A DNA stretch of 64,000 nt from Achromobacter sp. B7 (GTDB taxonomy: Bacteria; Pseudomonadota; Gammaproteobacteria; Burkholderiales; Burkholderiaceae_B), in NCBI RefSeq assembly GCF_003600685.1, contig NZ_CP032084.1, positions 5,952,001 through 6,016,000 on the forward strand, given 5' to 3'. Shown one piece after another: positions 52,652 to 62,270 of the stretch. The notes under the pieces were generated by a model. It worked only from the letters and a program-made list of their open reading frames with translations. It did no database searches and was not told the origin of the DNA. Positions within the stretch are counted from its first letter, which is position 1. The number at the start of each line of letters is the position of its first letter. The translations under genes and the position numbers were made by a program.

Positions 52652-53092
52652 ATGATTTATAAACCCTCGCAGTCGCTTGATGACGCAATCCAGCTCATCG
52701 ATCTTACGAAGATATCGGATCCTCGGGGCAACCTCACGTTCGTCGAGGCGAACAAACACGTTCCGTTCGATATTCAGCGCGTCTACTACCTCTACGACGT
52801 TCCCAGCGGCGAAATGCGAGCCGGGCATGCGCACCACAACCTTCAACAGCTGATCATCGGCATCTCGGGCAGTTTCGACCTGCTTCTGGATAATGGCTAC
52901 GAAAAACGAACCATCACATGCAATCGCCCTTTTCAGGGTGTACTGATGAAATCGCTGGTCTGGCGCGAATTGAATAACTTCTCCTCTGGTGCGGTTTGCC
53001 TGGTGCTGGCATCGATGCATTACCAAGAATCCGACTATATTCGCAGTTATGCGGACTTCCTGAAAGTTGTCGCCGAGAAAAATCCATCATGA
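52652..53092 (+). CDS. dTDP-4-keto-6-deoxyhexose 3,4-ketoisomerase (FdtA/QdtA/WxcM-like)
   Basis: A 146-residue cupin. The [14 protein letters not shown] motif (His59, His61, His62) is the active-site pattern of FdtA and QdtA, which turn dTDP-4-keto-6-deoxyglucose into the 3-keto sugar. The product configuration (galacto for FdtA, gluco for QdtA) cannot be read by eye. It uses the RmlB product, which links this part of the locus to rfbB. The next gene overlaps by four bases. Confidence 0.9.
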
Positions 53093-54189
53093 TCTCTTTT
53101 TTTGATATCAACGCCGGCCACGCGGAACTGGGCACAGGCCTGCATGACGCCTTCAAGCGTGTACTGGAAAGCGGCAGCATCATTATGGGCGCCGAGCTCA
53201 AGGCTTTCGAGGAAGAGTTCGCCGCCTATTGCGGCGTGAAGCACTGCATCGGCGTGGGCAACGGACTGGATGCGCTGGCGCTGGCGCTGCGCGCGCGCGG
53301 CATTGGGCCCGGCGACGAAGTCCTGGTACCGTCGCAGACATTTATCGCCAGTTGGCTCGCGGTGTCCATGACCGGCGCCAGCCCCGTCCCGGTTGAGATC
53401 GACATCAACACCTACGGCATCGACGCCTCGCTGTTGCGCAGCCACGTGACGCCTCGTACCAAGGCCATCATGCCAGTGCACTTGTACGGCTCGCCGGCCG
53501 ACATGGATGACATCAACGCAGTGGCCAAAGAGTTCGACCTCTTCGTCCTGGAAGATGCCGCGCAAGCGCATGGCGCCTACTACAAGGGCAAGCGCGCGGG
53601 CTCCCTCGGGCATGCAGCAGGTTTCAGCTTCTACCCCAGCAAAAACCTGGGGGCGTTGGGCGACGGCGGTGCGATTGTCACCAACGACGATGCGCTGGCC
53701 GACGACATGCGCCGCTTGCGCAATTACGGCTCGACCAAGAAGTACGTACACGAAGTTGCGGGCGTGAATTCCCGCCTGGACGAACTGCAGGCGGCAATCC
53801 TGCGCCTGAAGCTTCCAGTGCTGGATCACGGCAACGAACGCCGCCGCGCGATTGCGGACCGCTACACCGCCGGCCTGCAAGGAATTGCCGATCTGCAAAC
53901 GCCCAAATCGGTCGACGGCGCAACTTCGGTCTATCACCTGTATGTGATCCGCACCAGCAAGCGCAACGAGCTGGCCGCCTATCTAAATCAACAGGGCGTC
54001 ACCTGCCTCATCCACTATCCGATCGCTCCGCATCAGCAAGGCGCCTACGCCGATTTGAAGATTCCGGCCGACAGTTTGCCATTGGCCAACCAAGCGGCAG
54101 CCCAAACTCTGTCGTTGCCCATCTGGCCGCAGATGCCCTTCGCTGAAGTGGATGAAGTCATCGTGCTCATCAAGAAGTTCATGGGCTGA
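53089..54189 (+). CDS. PLP-dependent sugar 3-aminotransferase (DegT/DnrJ/EryC1; FdtB/QdtB-like)
   Basis: A 366-residue aminotransferase. The PLP Lys185 is in [17 protein letters not shown], with [14 protein letters not shown] and [17 protein letters not shown] upstream. The start at 53089 gives an ATGA overlap with the ketoisomerase; an open frame extends upstream but is not used. Together the two would make dTDP-3-amino-3,6-dideoxyhexose (Fuc3N or Qui3N). An acyl- or formyltransferase is needed next; the only candidate in the window is at 57815-58546. Confidence 0.93.
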
Positions 54190-54198
54190 ACGGCATTC

Positions 54199-55152
54199 AT
54201 GAACGCCCCTCTCGTCTCGGTGATCATCCCTGTGTTCAATCAGGGAGAGCTTGCGGTGCAAGCCGTCGAAAGTGTTTTGTCGCAACGCTATCCGCACATC
54301 CAGACCATCGTCGTTGACGATGGCTCGACGGACGGAACCGCCGCTTTGATATCACGCCAGTTCGGCGAACGCATTACGCTAATCCGCCAGGCCAACAGGG
54401 GGCCCAGCGCGGCATCCAATGCCGCACTGCGCGTCGCTGAGGGGGAGTTCGTCGCTCTCATGGGCGGCGACGACGTTTCCACCCCCGATCGCCTTGCGCA
54501 CCAGGTTGAAATACTCTCGTCGGGGAAATGGGACATCGTCTTTTCCCGACCGACTCTGATCGACCAGGAAGGCAAGACACTGGATGATTCGGGGTACCCC
54601 GTGTTCTTCCAGCCTCGCCGGCACAAGTCTGTGTTCGCAAGCCTGTATTTCGACGACAACTACTTTTGCGCCCCTTCGGCCGCCATGCGCCGCACCGTCG
54701 CTGATGCAGTGGGTCCATTCCATGAAGGGCTGATCCAACTGCAAGACTACGATTATTGGTTGCGCGCCGCCGGCCTGGGTTACCGCGTCGGTTTGTTCGA
54801 CCATCGGGTCGTGAAATATCGTCGGCACGTCGGCAACCTGTCGACAAATCAACGTGATTTCGCCAGCCGCGCTGAAATTCCGGTTGTCCTTAAACGCGCG
54901 CTGCGGCTTGCGAAGCCCGAAGTCATCCGGCCACTATTTCCTGGGTTACTGCTGCCCGTCGTGAGCCCGGAGCAGCCCTTGTCGCCCTTCGAGCAAAGCA
55001 CGCTCCTGCTGGCGCACTCGCGTGAGGAAGTTCGCTTGGCGGGGATTGATCGCGCAATTTCCTTGTTGGACGATCCCACCGAAGCCTCCTCGATGCACGG
55101 CGGGGTCGACCTGTTCCGTTTTATCTACACAGCGGGCCAAGAGCAGCATTGA
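54199..55152 (+). CDS. Glycosyltransferase family 2
   Basis: A 317-residue GT-A enzyme. VSVIIPVFNQGELAVQAVESVLSQ, VDDGSTDGTAALI and GGDDVSTPDRL (metal-binding Asp) are the standard blocks, and LIQLQDYDYWLRAAGLGYRVG is the acceptor-side segment. It lies 9 bases after the aminotransferase and is a candidate for transferring the amino sugar. A 184-base gap follows. Confidence 0.88.
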   Translation: MNAPLVSVIIPVFNQGELAVQAVESVLSQRYPHIQTIVVDDGSTDGTAALISRQFGERITLIRQANRGPSAASNAALRVAEGEFVALMGGDDVSTPDRLAHQVEILSSGKWDIVFSRPTLIDQEGKTLDDSGYPVFFQPRRHKSVFASLYFDDNYFCAPSAAMRRTVADAVGPFHEGLIQLQDYDYWLRAAGLGYRVGLFDHRVVKYRRHVGNLSTNQRDFASRAEIPVVLKRALRLAKPEVIRPLFPGLLLPVVSPEQPLSPFEQSTLLLAHSREEVRLAGIDRAISLLDDPTEASSMHGGVDLFRFIYTAGQEQH

Positions 55153-55336: not shown

Positions 55337-56728
55337 ATGAATGCATTGCAACCCCTTCGTGTGCTTCGAGACAAACTTCTGGGTCTCGGACAAACGACCC
55401 ACAGGCTTGAAAAGCTGGACTTGCGGCTGAACCAGCTAACGGGCCAATTGGACGACATGACGATTCAGCTACGCGCAGCGGATCAACGTGGAGCGCAAGC
55501 CCAAGATCAGATCGCGGCGATGCAGGCAGACATCTCGCGCCTGCCCCAGCAGCAGAACGTTGCGTTAGACGTGCTGGCCAATCGCATCGCCGCAGACACC
55601 CGTGAGTTATTTGGGCGACACGCGAACCTGTTTCATGCTCGCCCCCCCCGGGCGTCCACACAGCGCCGCACAGACGCCAACGTGATTGAACGCATCGCCT
55701 TCCTGGTGCATTCGAAAGAACTGCTCAATCACTACGGTTGCATCTGGGACTTGATGCCCAAGGGCAGCTTCGATGTACTGCTGCACGGCGAAGGCGAGCT
55801 GCCCCAGGCGGCCGATCTGGCGCGTTGGGATTGCGGTGTCGCGCCCACGCAGGCGGTGCTTGATGAAGGCAAGGCCTACCGCTATCTGGTCTCCAACCAT
55901 CCTGTATCGGATTTCGGCGAACCGCTGATCAAGCGCCTTGCTGAAACCAATATCCGCTTCATGTATGCCGCCGGAAAATCCCGGTGGAATCTTTCCCGTT
56001 GGAACCAGCTGTACGACATCATCCTGTGTTTTGGTCCCTATCACGCAATCAATTTTTCGCATGCATGCGATGCGGCCATCGTGCAGATGGGTTATCCGCG
56101 TTTCGACCGTTATTTCAATGACGTCGTTGACCGTGAGGCATTGGCCAGGGCACAGGGCTGCGACCCCGCCAAACCGACCGTCGTCTGGCTGCCAACTCAG
56201 GGCGCCCTCACCTCGCTGGGGCACTTCGATGCCGAGATCAGCGCATTGACGAGCCGCTATAACGTCATCGTGAAGGTACACCCACTGACTCCAGTTGCAG
56301 AGCCCGACCGAATTGATAAGCTGCGGCAGCTGAACTTTACCCGGATCATCTCCAACTCTGAAGATAATCTGCCGCTGTACCAATTGGCGGACTACATGTT
56401 GTTCGACTACGGCGGCCCGCCGATGGCGGGCATTTACGCCGACAAGCGCATGGTATTGCTGGACGTGCCGGGGGCAGCGGATGATGCCCTGACAGGCGAT
56501 GACTCGCCGGACGTGTCCATCCGCAAGCAACTGATTAACGTCACCGCGGAAGAGGGAGCCCTGGCCTCGCTATTGTCGGACGACGCCGTCTGGAGTACCC
56601 AGCAACATGCCCGACGCACGCTGCGTAGCCTGTACTTTGCTCCTCATTACGGCTTTTCCGCACAAGTCGCGGCGCAGGCGCTACTTAACCTGGACAAGCT
56701 GCTCCCAGACAGGAGCACCACATGGTGA
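55337..56728 (+). CDS. CDP-glycerol glycerophosphotransferase-like protein
   Basis: A 463-residue protein. Residues 1-90 are a heptad-rich region (RLEKLDLRLNQLTGQLDDM...) that is likely a coiled coil. The rest resembles the Glyphos_transf GT-B fold: HPVSDFGEPLIKRL, MGYPRFDRYFNDVV, VIVKVHPLTPV, and the LADYMLFDYGGPPMAGI...DKRMVLLDVP block that matches the family's DYSS-type motif. Such enzymes transfer a phospho-group from a CDP-activated donor. No CDP-glycerol synthase is in the window, so a donor of the CDP-phosphoramidate type is possible (inference). The start at 55337 is the first Met after the preceding gene. It overlaps the kinase gene by seven bases. Confidence 0.72.
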   Translation: MNALQPLRVLRDKLLGLGQTTHRLEKLDLRLNQLTGQLDDMTIQLRAADQRGAQAQDQIAAMQADISRLPQQQNVALDVLANRIAADTRELFGRHANLFHARPPRASTQRRTDANVIERIAFLVHSKELLNHYGCIWDLMPKGSFDVLLHGEGELPQAADLARWDCGVAPTQAVLDEGKAYRYLVSNHPVSDFGEPLIKRLAETNIRFMYAAGKSRWNLSRWNQLYDIILCFGPYHAINFSHACDAAIVQMGYPRFDRYFNDVVDREALARAQGCDPAKPTVVWLPTQGALTSLGHFDAEISALTSRYNVIVKVHPLTPVAEPDRIDKLRQLNFTRIISNSEDNLPLYQLADYMLFDYGGPPMAGIYADKRMVLLDVPGAADDALTGDDSPDVSIRKQLINVTAEEGALASLLSDDAVWSTQQHARRTLRSLYFAPHYGFSAQVAAQALLNLDKLLPDRSTTW

Positions 56729-57240
56729 TTTGGCTAGTTGGGTTATCCGGATCGGGCAAGACGACACTGGGCCGCGAAATGGCGCGGCAGTGGAGAAGCG
56801 TACAAGCAAATACGGTGCTGCTCGACGGTGACGAAGTACGCGAAGTCTTCGCGCATGACCGCAATAACGACGCCTACACCGTCGCCGGTCGGCGCACCAA
56901 CGCCGAACGCCTAGTCGCGCTATGCGAGCTGCTGGATCGCCAAGGCATCAACGTCGTGTGCTGCATCCTGTCCCTGTTCCCCGACATGCGCGAGGCCAAC
57001 CGCAGTCGCTTCAGCCGGTACTTCGAGATATTCATGGACGCCAACATGGACGCACTGAAGTTGCGTGACACCAAAGGGTTGTATCGCGCCGCCAGCGCTG
57101 GGACACAACATAACGTCGTTGGCGTCGACATTCCCTTTCCACGTCCCACGAGTGCCGATCTGATCATCTCCTCGTCTGGCGATTGCCCGGACATCGTCGC
57201 GTTGGCGCGCCGCACATTGGAACAGGCAGGCGCACGATGA
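56722..57240 (+). CDS. APS kinase-like protein (cytidine diphosphoramidate kinase candidate, Cj1415-like)
   Basis: A 172-residue P-loop kinase of the adenylylsulfate kinase family. Walker A is GLSGSGKTT at 7-15, the LLDGDEVREVF segment is the substrate-binding block, and RDTKGLYRAASAG is the lid region. There are no cysD, cysN, or sulfotransferase genes nearby, and the following genes match the other steps of the C. jejuni phosphoramidate pathway. There the homologue, once annotated CysC, phosphorylates the 3'-OH of cytidine in CDP-phosphoramidate. I assign that role by context. Overlaps of 7 and 4 bases link it to its neighbours. Confidence 0.78.
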   Translation: MVIWLVGLSGSGKTTLGREMARQWRSVQANTVLLDGDEVREVFAHDRNNDAYTVAGRRTNAERLVALCELLDRQGINVVCCILSLFPDMREANRSRFSRYFEIFMDANMDALKLRDTKGLYRAASAGTQHNVVGVDIPFPRPTSADLIISSSGDCPDIVALARRTLEQAGAR

Positions 57241-57818
57241 CATCCCCGCTCCCCGTGCATTACCCTTACGCGACCGGCGCCCTGCTGGATGCACGCAACA
57301 CATACTCGTACACCGCTTTTCATGGCGCCGACTTCTTGGCGGCCTGGAGCCGCCATCGCGACGCATTGTTGCAACCGTCTGCAGATACTGCCGTCGCCGC
57401 CCCTCGGGCCGGCAAGCTGTTGCCCCCTAGGCCAACGGAGCTGCTGCTGAGCAGAGTGCGAAGCGGACTCGCAGGAGACGCACGCGGACAAGCCCTTGCG
57501 TCGCTAAATCATGTGTTGCAACGATTCGAAGTGACTAAGCGAATCCACGGCGAATACAACACCAATTGGCGTCCCGCCGACCTGCAGGACTACAACGACC
57601 TGGACTTGTACGTGCAGTTTGCGCAAGCACTTGATGAGGCCTATGGCGTGACCCGCGGGCTGCAATATCTGAACGGCCTGTTGAAGTGCCTGGATACGCT
57701 GACTGCCTACATGCCTGCGCTGAGCTCCGAGCAGATAGAAAACCTGCAAACGCTGGTGCGCTCAGAGCGAAGTCACGTTGACGCCTTGCGCCGGGCGCTG
57801 GACGAGAGGGCGGCATGA
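57237..57818 (+). CDS. Unknown protein of the phosphoramidate unit
   Basis: A 193-residue protein of no family I recognise. The N-terminal third has VHYPYATGALLDARNTYSYTAFHGADFLAAW, and a Pro-rich stretch (LLPPRPTEL) precedes a mostly helical C-terminal half rich in Leu, Asp and Arg. No membrane segment or signal peptide is seen. It overlaps both neighbours by four bases (ATGA), so it belongs to the same translational unit. A transferase partner, an assembly factor or a new enzyme are all possible. Confidence 0.75.
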   Translation: MTSPLPVHYPYATGALLDARNTYSYTAFHGADFLAAWSRHRDALLQPSADTAVAAPRAGKLLPPRPTELLLSRVRSGLAGDARGQALASLNHVLQRFEVTKRIHGEYNTNWRPADLQDYNDLDLYVQFAQALDEAYGVTRGLQYLNGLLKCLDTLTAYMPALSSEQIENLQTLVRSERSHVDALRRALDERAA

Positions 57819-58546
57819 GACTCAACAGGGTATTACTGTTGGCCGCGCATACGGCCAGATCGCAAGCTTATATCCAGACGCTGGTTGCCCGCGATCTGCT
57901 GCCGGCCTCGGTCATCTTGCTCGCGCCTCCGGAGAATGTGTCGTCCAGGCAAGCCAGGCCGCAACCAGACATGCCCGGATTGATATTGCCCGACCTGGAA
58001 GAATCCGTCACCGCCACTTGCGCCCGCACCGGCATCCCTGTCGTGGAGCTCGATACCCGTGACGTCAACAGCTCCGAAGTGGCGGCAGCCATGACGGCCG
58101 CGCAAACGGACGTCGTCATCTACTCAGGCTATGGCGGGCAGATCGTTTCGGATCACTTGTTGGCGTTGGGTCCTGTCTTCCTGCACATGCATTCGGGATG
58201 GCTTCCTGCCTACCGGGGAAGCACAACGTTGTATTACGCGCTGCTCAATGGCGATCCACCGGCGGTATCCGCCCTGTTGCTGGACAAGCATATCGACACA
58301 GGCCCCGTAGTGGCGCGCCGCGAGTATCCCAAGCCCCCCGCCGGTATCGACGTGGACAGCGTTTACGACGCCGCCATACGAGCAGACCTGCTCGCGCACG
58401 TACTGAAGGATTACGCCGCGTCGGGCGAGCTTTCTGGCGAACGCCAGCAAGTCGGACCCGACACCAGCCCCTACTATGTCATTCATCCTGTGCTAAAGCA
58501 CTTGGCCTTGCTCTCTCTCGCTCCACAGCCCTCCGAAGATGGTTGA
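57815..58546 (+). CDS. Formyltransferase-fold protein (sugar N-formyltransferase candidate)
   Basis: A 243-residue protein with the formyltransferase N-terminal domain. VVIYSGYGGQIVSDHLLAL, FLHMHSGWLPAYRGSTTLYYALLNGD and LLLDKHIDTGPVVARREYP match the core of methionyl-tRNA and sugar formyltransferases. The usual catalytic Asn-x-His is His124-Met-His126 here; Asp161 (IDTG) is kept. No tRNA-binding domain is present. It could formylate the amine of the 3-amino-3,6-dideoxyhexose made by the FdtA/FdtB-like pair, as in the Qdt pathway, or act on the phosphoramidate unit. It overlaps the glutamine kinase gene by eight bases. Confidence 0.78.
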   Translation: MRLNRVLLLAAHTARSQAYIQTLVARDLLPASVILLAPPENVSSRQARPQPDMPGLILPDLEESVTATCARTGIPVVELDTRDVNSSEVAAAMTAAQTDVVIYSGYGGQIVSDHLLALGPVFLHMHSGWLPAYRGSTTLYYALLNGDPPAVSALLLDKHIDTGPVVARREYPKPPAGIDVDSVYDAAIRADLLAHVLKDYAASGELSGERQQVGPDTSPYYVIHPVLKHLALLSLAPQPSEDG

Positions 58547-60953
58547 ACGCCAAACACCCCTCGCCGGTCAGCGCGCCGTCTTCGCATTCGGCACGAAGGC
58601 AGAAACACTCCAGCGGCTGCAAGCGTTGCTGCAGCATGCCCGCGTGCCCGACTTCCTATTCTTTTCATTGAAAGAGTGGAACGTCAGTCGCGATGCCGTC
58701 GTCGCCCGGGTGCTGGAAAAGTTCACCGGCGCGACCCTGGCCGTGCGCAGCAGCGCGTTGATCGAAGATGGCGCCCGCCATTCGATGGCCGGTGCGTTCC
58801 TCAGCTTGCTGGACGTGGATGGCTCGTCGCCGGAGGCCGTAGCAGACGCTATTGATCGGGTAGCGCATTCCATGACGGGCGATCCGCGTGACCAGGTCCT
58901 GGTGCAACCGATGATTAGCGATGTCGCCGTCAACGGCGTCATCATGACCTATGACATGGTTCACGGTACGCCCTACTACTGCATCGACTTCGACGACGAG
59001 AGCGGGCGCACGGATACAGTCACGGGTGGCAGCGCCATCAATAAGGGCCTCTTCGTTTACCGCGATGCCGCACCAGAGTACCTTCGGTCATCCCGCGTCG
59101 CACGCTTTCTGGAACTCGCGCGCGAACTGGAAACACTGTGCCAATGCGCCGCGCTGGATATCGAGTTTGGCCTGAGCCGCGAGGGGCAACTTTATCTGTT
59201 CCAGGTCAGACGAATGTCGATGGCTGGGCAATGGCACCCGGTAACGGAGCGCCGCGTCGAGCGGCAGTTGGCTTTCGTTGAGGAATTCGTCCGGGACTGT
59301 TCGCTGCCCCAAGCGGGCATTGTGGGCGACACGACCGTGCTTGCCGTCATGCCAGACTGGAATCCAGCCGAGCTTATCGGGACAACTCCGAGGCCGTTGT
59401 CGGCGTCTCTATACCGTGAGATGATCACGCGCTCGACATGGCACGAAGCTCGCGCCGTGATGGGCTACCGACGCCTACATGACGCGGAGCTGATGGTACA
59501 GATCAATGGGCATCCCTATATTGATGTCCGCCTGAGCTTCAACTCATTTCTGCCCGCCGACGTCAGCGACGACATCGGCGCGAAGTTGGTGAACGCTTGG
59601 CTCACCAGGCTGAAAGAAAACCCAGAATTTCATGACAAGGTCGAATTCGATGTCGTGCCCACCTGTCTGGATTTTTGCTTCGATGAGGACTTCACGGAAC
59701 GCTACCCCTCCGTGCTGGACACCGCCGAACTACAGCAGTTCCGCTCGGCCTTGCAAGCACTGACAAGGCAAGCTATCACACCTGGGCCAGCGTCCACGTT
59801 GACGCAAGCTCTCGACACCGCAGAACGCCTGGCACGCAGCGGCACGCCGACGCTGCGGGACCCGTCCGCGCGCATCGCGCTCGCAAGCGCTAGCCGCTTG
59901 CTAAGCACCTGTCGTCAGCAAGGAGTGCTGCCCTTCGCCATCTCGGCCCGCCACGCGTTCATCGCAGAAAGCCTGATGCGTTCGGCAGTCCGCCGCGGCG
60001 CGCTGACGTCGACACGTCTTGAGGCGTTCAAGCGCAGCATCCACACTGTCACCGCCAACATCGTCCGCGAGTATGCCCAAGTCTGCCTTGGAACACTGTC
60101 ACGCGAGGAGTTCCTGAGCCGCTTCGGCCACTTGCGCCCAGGCACCTACGAGATCACGTCACTGCGTTATGACGAACGCGACGACTTGTTCCTGAACGAA
60201 GTCCCCACGCTGCACGAAGTCAATGTGCATGAATTTCAGCTTGACGAGCAGGAGCGCGCAGCCCTGAACGCCCTTCTGCAGGAAAGTGGGCTGGACGTGT
60301 TGGACGCGGATCAGTTGCTGACCTATGCGCGCACCGCGATCGCTGCTCGCGAATCCGTCAAGTTCACGTTCACCAAGGTGCTCTCGGACGCACTATCGCT
60401 TCTGATTTCCTGGGGCGAACAGGTCGGATTATCGCGCGACGACCTTGCCTACCTGGAGTGGAACTCCATCCAGAACTGCCTCACGCAACCGCCGATGGAC
60501 TACCTCGACCGGCACTATCAGGTCGTGGCCGCAAACGCCCGTCTTCAATTGGAATCCGCGCACGCGTTCAAACTGGCCCACATTATCGCTGGCGTCCCGG
60601 ATATCTACGTGGCGACGTTGAATCGTAGCGTTCCCAACTTCGTCGGAACCGGCGTAGCGTCGGGCACAATCGTCGAGGTGACGGCCAAGATGTCGGCGCA
60701 GGCCGATATCGAAGGCAGGATCATCTGTATCGAGAACGCGGATCCGGGATTTGACTGGATCTTCACCCAGCGACCCGCTGCGCTGATCACGCGCTTCGGC
60801 GGCGCCAACTCACACATGGCGATCCGTTGCGCAGAGTTCGGCTTGCCCGCGGCCATCGGCTGTGGCGATCAACTCTATTCGCGGCTGGTCGCCGCAGGTA
60901 CGGCAGAACTCAACTGCGCCGAGAAAATTCTGCGAGCGCTTCATGAAAAGTGA
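58539..60953 (+). CDS. PEP-synthase-like L-glutamine kinase candidate (Cj1418-like)
   Basis: An 804-residue protein with an N-terminal ATP-grasp region (LAVRSSALIEDG near 68-79, and LDIEFGLSREGQLYLFQVRRM near 208) and a C-terminal phospho-histidine domain (ALITRFGGANSHMAIRCAEFGLPAAIG with His759). There is no C-terminal PEP/pyruvate TIM barrel, so it is not a PEP synthase. This architecture and length match the C. jejuni capsule enzyme that phosphorylates the amide nitrogen of L-glutamine. The next two genes encode the pathway's other enzymes, which supports the assignment. Stop overlaps the amidotransferase start by 11 bases. Confidence 0.85.
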   Translation: MVERQTPLAGQRAVFAFGTKAETLQRLQALLQHARVPDFLFFSLKEWNVSRDAVVARVLEKFTGATLAVRSSALIEDGARHSMAGAFLSLLDVDGSSPEAVADAIDRVAHSMTGDPRDQVLVQPMISDVAVNGVIMTYDMVHGTPYYCIDFDDESGRTDTVTGGSAINKGLFVYRDAAPEYLRSSRVARFLELARELETLCQCAALDIEFGLSREGQLYLFQVRRMSMAGQWHPVTERRVERQLAFVEEFVRDCSLPQAGIVGDTTVLAVMPDWNPAELIGTTPRPLSASLYREMITRSTWHEARAVMGYRRLHDAELMVQINGHPYIDVRLSFNSFLPADVSDDIGAKLVNAWLTRLKENPEFHDKVEFDVVPTCLDFCFDEDFTERYPSVLDTAELQQFRSALQALTRQAITPGPASTLTQALDTAERLARSGTPTLRDPSARIALASASRLLSTCRQQGVLPFAISARHAFIAESLMRSAVRRGALTSTRLEAFKRSIHTVTANIVREYAQVCLGTLSREEFLSRFGHLRPGTYEITSLRYDERDDLFLNEVPTLHEVNVHEFQLDEQERAALNALLQESGLDVLDADQLLTYARTAIAARESVKFTFTKVLSDALSLLISWGEQVGLSRDDLAYLEWNSIQNCLTQPPMDYLDRHYQVVAANARLQLESAHAFKLAHIIAGVPDIYVATLNRSVPNFVGTGVASGTIVEVTAKMSAQADIEGRIICIENADPGFDWIFTQRPAALITRFGGANSHMAIRCAEFGLPAAIGCGDQLYSRLVAAGTAELNCAEKILRALHEK

Positions 60954-61542
60954 CCGAAGAATCGGCATCTCCATGCGAGTCGTGCAGGCCACCGGCTACG
61001 CGGAGCCGCGAGACGCCCTATCCCAACAGTGGGCCGGCTTCATGGCGCAGGCACTGCCAGGCACGCGCTGGCTGCCCATTCCGAATCTGGGCGCCCAAGC
61101 GGTGTCCGTGTTCTGCGCGCAATGGGAACTGAATGGCCTGATCCTGAGCGGTGGTGACGACATCGGACATTCGCATGTGCGTGACGAGACGGAACTGGAG
61201 CTACTGGAATGGGCTGAGCGGCATGACGCGCCTGTGCTGGGCATCTGCCGCGGCATGCAATTGATGTGCATGCGGGCCGGCGCCGAACTGGTCCCTGTGC
61301 AAGGTCATGTGCGCACGCGGCACGTCCTGTCTGGTGAACGCAGCGGAGAGGTCAACAGCTTTCATGCGTGGGCGCCGGACCGTTGCCCAATGGGCTTCCG
61401 GCCCCTGGCGAATGCCCCCGACGGTGTGCTAGAGGCCGTTGCACATGGCACCCTGCGCTGGGAAGGCTGGATGTGGCACCCCGAGCGTGAAACCTTGATC
61501 GACCAGCTGGACGCGCAACGTCTGCAAAGGATATTTGAATGA
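60943..61542 (+). CDS. Class I glutamine amidotransferase-like hydrolase (Cj1417-like gamma-glutamyl-CDP-amidate hydrolase candidate)
   Basis: A 199-residue protein of the peptidase C26/GATase fold. The catalytic triad is Cys102 (LGICRGMQL), His179 and Glu181 (MWHPERE). The preceding LILSGGDDIGHSH block is typical. The role in C. jejuni is removal of glutamate from CDP-linked phosphoglutamine to leave CDP-phosphoramidate. There is no synthetase partner nearby, so amidotransfer is unlikely. The ATG at 60943 overlaps the kinase gene; a longer frame upstream is only an extension through that gene. Confidence 0.83.
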   Translation: MKSDRRIGISMRVVQATGYAEPRDALSQQWAGFMAQALPGTRWLPIPNLGAQAVSVFCAQWELNGLILSGGDDIGHSHVRDETELELLEWAERHDAPVLGICRGMQLMCMRAGAELVPVQGHVRTRHVLSGERSGEVNSFHAWAPDRCPMGFRPLANAPDGVLEAVAHGTLRWEGWMWHPERETLIDQLDAQRLQRIFE

Positions 61543-62270
61543 AAGCCATCATCCTCGCGGCGGGACGCGGCAGCCGCATGGGCGACATGACGGCAGACCA
61601 ACCGAAGTGTCTGACCAAATTGAAGGGCATTGCTTTGCTGGACAGACAGCTGGCGGCATTGCGCGAGGGCGGCGTCGACGAAATTGGCATTGTGACCGGG
61701 TATCGTCGCGAGGCCCTGGCCGATCGCGGTCTGCACGAGTTCCACAATGCCGATTGGAGCCATACGAACATGGTTTCGTCCCTGGCGTGCGCCCGGCGGT
61801 GGTTGCAGGACGGCCCGTGCATCGTCAGCTATTCGGACATCTTCTACGAAGCCCAGGCGGTCCGATCGCTCATTCATTACGACGGCGCCTTGGCGCTGAC
61901 TTACGATCCCGATTGGCTGTCTTTGTGGGGCGCACGCTTCAGCGATCCGCTCTCCGACGCGGAAACCTTCAGATTGGCCCCAGATGGGACGCTATTGGAA
62001 ATCGGCGAAAAGCCCCTCACTGTGGGTGAAGTACAGGGGCAGTACATGGGGCTATTGCGCTTTACTCCCGAAAGCTGGCACGCCTTGGACAATATGCGTG
62101 CCGCGCTGCCGAGGGACGAGCGCAACCAGATGCATATGACTGGCGCCCTGCAGCACCTTATTCGAACGGGTGGCATAGCTATTCACGCTGTGCCCTATAG
62201 CGGTACTTGGGGCGAAGTAGACTCACAGGAAGATCTGGCCGTTTACGAGTCTGCCCCACTTCGGCCGTAG
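61539..62270 (+). CDS. Nucleotidyltransferase (Cj1416-like CTP:phosphoglutamine cytidylyltransferase candidate)
   Basis: A 243-residue GT-A-fold nucleotidyltransferase. The signature AIILAAGRGSRMGDMTADQPKCLTKL, the HTNMVSSL block, SYSDIFYE (metal-binding Asp) and a late GTWGEVDSQEDLAVYE are typical of choline- and phosphoamino-type cytidylyltransferases. In C. jejuni the relative converts phosphoglutamine and CTP to CDP-glutamine. It overlaps the upstream hydrolase by four bases and is the last gene of the unit; the membrane protein on the other strand converges on it. Confidence 0.85.
   Translation: MKAIILAAGRGSRMGDMTADQPKCLTKLKGIALLDRQLAALREGGVDEIGIVTGYRREALADRGLHEFHNADWSHTNMVSSLACARRWLQDGPCIVSYSDIFYEAQAVRSLIHYDGALALTYDPDWLSLWGARFSDPLSDAETFRLAPDGTLLEIGEKPLTVGEVQGQYMGLLRFTPESWHALDNMRAALPRDERNQMHMTGALQHLIRTGGIAIHAVPYSGTWGEVDSQEDLAVYESAPLRP

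Follow-up and report, generated by a model that had tools for sequence, protein, structure and literature searches.

A predicted phosphoramidate-donor gene set with a formyltransferase-fold partner in a polysaccharide locus of Achromobacter sp. B7

The capsule of Campylobacter jejuni carries O-methyl phosphoramidate (MeOPN), and a step of its synthesis is assigned to each of Cj1415 to Cj1418, while Cj1421 and Cj1422 are the transferases. The glutamine kinase Cj1418 acts first, and the later steps are those of the CTP (cytidine triphosphate):phosphoglutamine cytidylyltransferase Cj1416, the gamma-glutamyl-CDP (cytidine diphosphate)-amidate hydrolase Cj1417, and the CDP-phosphoramidate kinase Cj1415. 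We analyzed a window of 64,000 nucleotides from Achromobacter sp. B7 (GCF_003600685.1, contig NZ_CP032084.1, positions 5,952,001 to 6,016,000), whose genome is one contig of 6,236,552 bases, and found a unit of seven genes, g-A-U-F-K-H-N (55337-62270), within a locus for a polysaccharide exported by an ATP-binding cassette (ABC) system. Four of these genes very probably form a phosphoramidate-donor pathway, and two further genes, U and F, are candidates for a tailoring enzyme. The first step of the C. jejuni scheme is described in a 2019 review, according to which MeOPN was so far known from Campylobacter only (PMC6429109), and a 2022 review termed the glutamine kinase C. jejuni-specific (PMC9561416).

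Phosphorus-nitrogen (P-N) groups without O-methyl are known on other Gram-negative glycans, namely the lipooligosaccharide of Xanthomonas campestris and a minor lipopolysaccharide form of Shewanella MR-4 (PMC8042644, PMC3210612, PMC3907429). In the available text of these sources they are structures given without genes. An MeOPN cluster outside Campylobacter was also predicted earlier on a Borg, an archaeal extrachromosomal element, and the available text does not mention a formyltransferase (PMC12660748). Phosphoramidate outside Campylobacter is therefore not new, while the U-F partner and the breadth of the gene set appear to be. The available part of a paper on the Legionella longbeachae capsule only cites Campylobacter MeOPN. 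According to earlier work, C. jejuni is able to make both methylated and unmethylated phosphoramidate forms (PMC9561416, PMC3907429), and the O-methyl signal was absent by nuclear magnetic resonance (NMR) in Campylobacter fetus strains with Cj1416-1418 orthologues (PMC3907429). A published table for Campylobacter lists CFT03427_1556, a phase-variable "Formyltransferase domain-containing protein" (PMC6321876), and a system of the U-F type might be present in C. fetus.

The window resembles C. jejuni in grouping the four fold classes within a surface-polysaccharide locus, but differs in having no O-methyltransferase found, in carrying U-F and a TagF-type gene g, and in an H that lies outside the curated equivalog. 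The genes of the unit are as follows.

55337..56728, + strand: g, candidate phosphoramidate transferase; predicted fold of a TagF-type CDP-alditol phosphotransferase, extended at the N terminus
56722..57240, + strand: A, APS (adenylylsulfate)-kinase fold; candidate CDP-phosphoramidate 3′-kinase
57237..57818, + strand: U, 193 amino acids, without a family match; partner of F
57815..58546, + strand: F, formyltransferase fold; His124-x-His126, Asp161, and a C-terminal HPxLKH motif
58539..60953, + strand: K, candidate glutamine kinase with swivel-domain His759
60943..61542, + strand: H, class I amidotransferase-type hydrolase with Cys102; candidate gamma-glutamyl-CDP-amidate hydrolase
61539..62270, + strand: N, NTP_transf_3 nucleotidyltransferase; candidate CTP:phosphoglutamine cytidylyltransferase

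Adjacent genes from A to N (56722-62270) overlap by 4-11 bases, and every frame is intact. A sequence-only reading of this DNA had described K, H, N, and A as one overlapping unit; their frames, fold classes, and overlaps were confirmed, but U and F, which belong to the same unit, had gone unmentioned.

The family PRK05849, which we take to be that of Cj1418, matched K with 876.9 bits (cutoff 501) and was also above its cutoff in all six K relatives scanned. K consists of PPDK_N and a PEP (phosphoenolpyruvate)-utiliser mobile (His) domain, no PEP-binding C-terminal domain or PEP barrel was matched in the family scan, and His759 is invariant in 13 aligned kinases. A PEP synthase was ruled out, the score against TIGR01418 being 36.5 bits with a cutoff of 739.75 and the PEP-binding C-terminal domain being unmatched. 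K is also not the PEP synthase of this genome, because two other proteins reach 411 and 161 bits with PPDK_N compared with 29.6 bits for K. Among the matches listed, the closest named relative is from Achromobacter spanius (90% identical), and three homologs are labelled glutamine kinase at the source. For A, the subfamily PRK05541, presumably that of Cj1415, gave 148.8 bits (cutoff 127), and a true APS kinase was ruled out on score (TIGR00455 apsK equivalog, 100.7 with a cutoff of 138.7). Thus, the two objections foreseen in the sequence-only reading, that K clusters with PEP synthases or that A uses adenylylsulfate, look unlikely, both as judged from family scores.

H has the class I glutamine-amidotransferase/peptidase C26 fold with the motifs GICRG and WHPE, and its best NCBIfam family is NF045546 (gamma-glutamyl-CDP-amidate hydrolase), at 107.1 bits under a cutoff of 250. 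The same family was the best for 10 of 10 relatives from other loci (80-128 bits, all under the cutoff). By these scores, H is homologous to the hydrolase, yet outside the curated equivalog. N matched PF12804 (NTP_transf_3) with 68.9 bits, and its relatives in the PDB include CTP:phosphocholine cytidylyltransferase; no model specific for CTP:phosphoglutamine cytidylyltransferase matched N, only the fold. Homology to the C. jejuni scheme predicts that K phosphorylates the amide nitrogen of glutamine, N joins the product to cytidine monophosphate from CTP, H takes off glutamate to give CDP-phosphoramidate, and A adds a 3′-phosphate. By this analogy, such a core donor pathway is very probable.

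The distribution of the genes was analyzed in 86 loci with K (85 fetched loci and the window), a partner being counted if it lay within 8 kb of K. H was present in 76, N in 77, and A in 68 loci, which is beyond chance and extends across phyla; missing partners are in part due to truncation, because the fetched stretch of some loci is short or breaks off where the contig does. Single reading frames join N with K (L008 and L083) and H with K (L052). Together with the family matches, these data back the Cj1415-Cj1418-like pathway proposed in the sequence-only reading, less so for H, given its score, and for N, given the lack of a specific model. A protein search with K yielded 5671 matches with an E value of 0.001 or lower; identity to K is 56-100% among the 120 listed, and the remainder may include other PEP-utiliser proteins. 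In a scan of named genomes, at least 537 stretches encoded a K relative, of which 80 from many phyla were kept. Among evenly drawn genomes, with the source genome included, K was found in 15 of 398 Pseudomonadota and 6 of 268 members of the family. Since K relatives also occur on plasmids (14 of 72,556 records, including Azospirillum, Vibrio, Cupriavidus, and Roseovarius), the module can move. One distant K relative and no F were found on viral contigs; K relatives in viral-labelled records (phage MT837632, 31% identical; IMG/VR contig L140, 28%) may be on bacterial contigs.

U had no Pfam or NCBIfam match in the scan from 57240, and the best hit of a PDB sequence search (E 0.94) was not useful. 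F matched PF00551 (formyltransferase) with 40.7 bits (cutoff 26.1) and has the corresponding fold. It shares this fold and the catalytic His and Asp (Asp161) with the formyltransferases that depend on 10-formyl-tetrahydrofolate (10-formyl-THF), such as Fmt, ArnA, and WlaRD, but differs in having the extra HPxLKH motif, the partner U, and His in place of Asn. In the alignment with ArnA, Asn-x-His is replaced by His124-x-His126, so that the Asn-His-Asp triad is not intact; HxH is found in 118 of 120 close F homologs. F also keeps the RGST loop. A fold search with the U-F model gave matches from the F part only (residues 202-431), including sugar N-formyltransferases and the hydrolase domains of 10-formyl-THF dehydrogenase and HypX.

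U and F occur together in 38 of the 86 loci, each alone in one, and neither in 46. The exceptions to the pairing are L016, where F is 0.3 kb from the contig end, and L068, where the 280 bases after U are not F-like. Of the 9 independent pairs drawn from the kinase tree, 7-8 show F and U changing together, and none shows them changing in opposite directions (median p 0.008). U and F form single frames in seven loci (L010, L011, L017, L027, L028, L136, and L142), and A and U do so in L048 and L061; the tree-aware test of the U-A association gave a median p of 0.25. In the family, U was found in 4 of 268 genomes, the identical four that carry an F of this clade, and wider draws gave 2 of 398 and 2 of 316. 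Across the three draws, these are six distinct genomes, each with K about 2 kb or less away.

The co-occurrence and fusions make it fairly likely that U and F act as a single enzyme and modify nucleotide-linked phosphoramidate ahead of its transfer. The simplest chemistry would be the addition of a one-carbon unit from 10-formyl-THF, a tentative proposal, since the altered catalytic triad allows others. A fuller reading is doubtful; in it, U-F is a new folate-dependent enzyme that adds a formyl unit to nucleotide-activated phosphoramidate to give an N-acyl phosphoramidate, a TagF-type transferase hands this over to the glycan, and the kinase loci concerned belong to five or more bacterial phyla. 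Neither such a P-N glycan decoration nor a formyltransferase in this pathway was found in the open-licence literature searched.

The first gene of the unit, g, reaches the gathering score of PF04464 (CDP-alditol phosphotransferase), and its predicted structure matches CDP-donor transferases. It shares the fold of TagF/TarL and the CDP-donor transfer expected from it, but the identity to TagF is only 16-17% in alignments, and a PDB sequence search with the g profile gave no match at E 0.1 or better. From its modelled fold and its position, g is quite probably the phosphoramidate transferase, which would pass the group from its CDP carrier to a hydroxyl of a sugar, like TagF, which transfers glycerol phosphate from CDP-glycerol. 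With the formyl detail left aside, the whole chain, in which the unit makes, tailors, and transfers phosphoramidate onto the exported polysaccharide, is in our view slightly more likely than not.

As the sequence-only reading had stated, no methyltransferase was recognized by Pfam among the 20 proteins of 43325-63968, and profiles of two S-adenosylmethionine methyltransferase families, MT1 and MT2, had no match in the window, the search before 43325 covering these two families only. Its suggestion that the group is unmethylated or differently modified pointed in the right direction, while the relevant genes g, U, and F were overlooked. Of the 86 loci, 19 have MT1 at a distance of up to 8 kb from K and 39 have U, with no locus in common, and a set of 99 rows gave 26 with MT1 and 39 with U, again without overlap. 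In the single-cell genome of Prochlorococcus sp. AG-402-I21, U and MT1 are both present on separate contigs (L066 and L136), one carrying g, MT1, K, H, and N and the other carrying A, another g, and a fusion of U with F. Judged from these two branches, each tailoring gene may bring along a g of its own. The branch with the U-F fusion lies near a further APS-kinase-like gene. MT2 was matched at 16 loci, weakly at 3, and eight of the 16 have U; since MT2 and U-F share these eight kinase loci (L012, L042, L048, L050, L058, L069, L080, and L082), some groups may carry both modifications. A tandem pair of MT1-type methyltransferases was observed at another kinase locus (L045:9627-11472).

Several observations weigh against the proposed functions. 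The likeness to Cj1415-Cj1418 is one of family models and folds, and H stays below its equivalog cutoff. About half of the kinase loci have no U-F, and in L122, where no U was found, A and K have as a neighbor an F-like HxH gene that lacks HPxLKH. In the structural list of g, ranked by Z, the UDP-GlcNAc (uridine diphosphate N-acetylglucosamine) 2-epimerases come next after TagF, at 19.3, and the donor is therefore not fixed by fold alone. Both the association of U with g (Fisher p 4e-6) and the mutual exclusion of U and MT1 (Fisher p 1.8e-6) have a tree-aware median p of 1 and are not significant. Because the exclusion fails this test and MT2 occurs with U, U-F is an alternative or additional tailoring step and not a proven replacement of O-methylation. 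Finally, U is present in 11 of 13 loci with an FdtA-like gene compared with 39 of 86 overall, which lowers the odds both of U-F tailoring phosphoramidate and of the formyl reading.

The last observation points towards a sugar N-formyltransferase composed of F with U, acting on the dTDP (thymidine diphosphate)-3-amino-3,6-dideoxyhexose expected from FdtA and FdtB (52652-54189), in which case the core pathway would hold and the phosphoramidate would be plain. FdtA and FdtB lie just upstream, the 20 proteins of 43325-63968 include no other recognized N-acyltransferase, and sugar N-formyltransferases are among the structural matches. However, no FdtA-like gene was seen in 28 of the 39 U loci, and neither an FdtA-like nor a DegT-like gene in 19, although the fetched stretches are limited and the clustering missed the FdtA of the window itself. 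The A-U fusion at two loci, the second, canonical Asn-x-His formyltransferase at nine U-F loci, and the replacement of Asn by His in nearly all close F homologs also argue against a sugar substrate, which we consider unlikely. If U-F were instead a folate-independent or hydrolytic helper that, for example, protects, cleaves, or proofreads the nucleotide phosphoramidate, the missing catalytic Asn and the matches to the hydrolase domains would be accounted for, and the glycan group would again be plain phosphoramidate, as known from Xanthomonas and Shewanella (PMC8042644, PMC3210612). We regard this as improbable, since the triad His and Asp and the RGST loop are kept and hydrolysis has no direct evidence.

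That K, H, N, and A make another nucleotide-activated amide or phosphate group seems very improbable. The low scores of H and its 10 relatives and the lack of a specific model for N would allow it, and the PRK05849 model names no substrate ("hypothetical protein"). Nevertheless, K and its six relatives exceed the PRK05849 cutoff by a wide margin, each of the 11 hydrolases scanned has NF045546 as its best family, the three K homologs carry the glutamine kinase label, and the fold classes of all four known pathway enzymes co-occur. A phosphoramidate donor tailored by U-F remains the reading that we prefer.

The wider locus contains, from 43325 on, RmlA- and RmlC-type genes, glycosyltransferases (one WsaF-like), an epimerase, and an RgpF-like gene, and also, upstream of the unit, an ABC-2 permease with its ATPase and a GT61 protein. 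Beyond the 3′ end of N, the opposite strand encodes a DUF2142 membrane protein. The genes directly before g are as follows.

52652-53092: FdtA, upstream of the unit
ending at 54189: FdtB, after FdtA and upstream of the unit
54199-55152: GT2, between FdtB and g

Since the kinase and its partner genes span many phyla, surface glycans may commonly bear P-N groups that escape NMR screens for O-methyl protons. Concrete candidates are now available for a chemical variant of the group (U-F) and for the transfer step (g). Because Campylobacter phages recognize the group (PMC9561416), its variants matter to studies of phages and their hosts.

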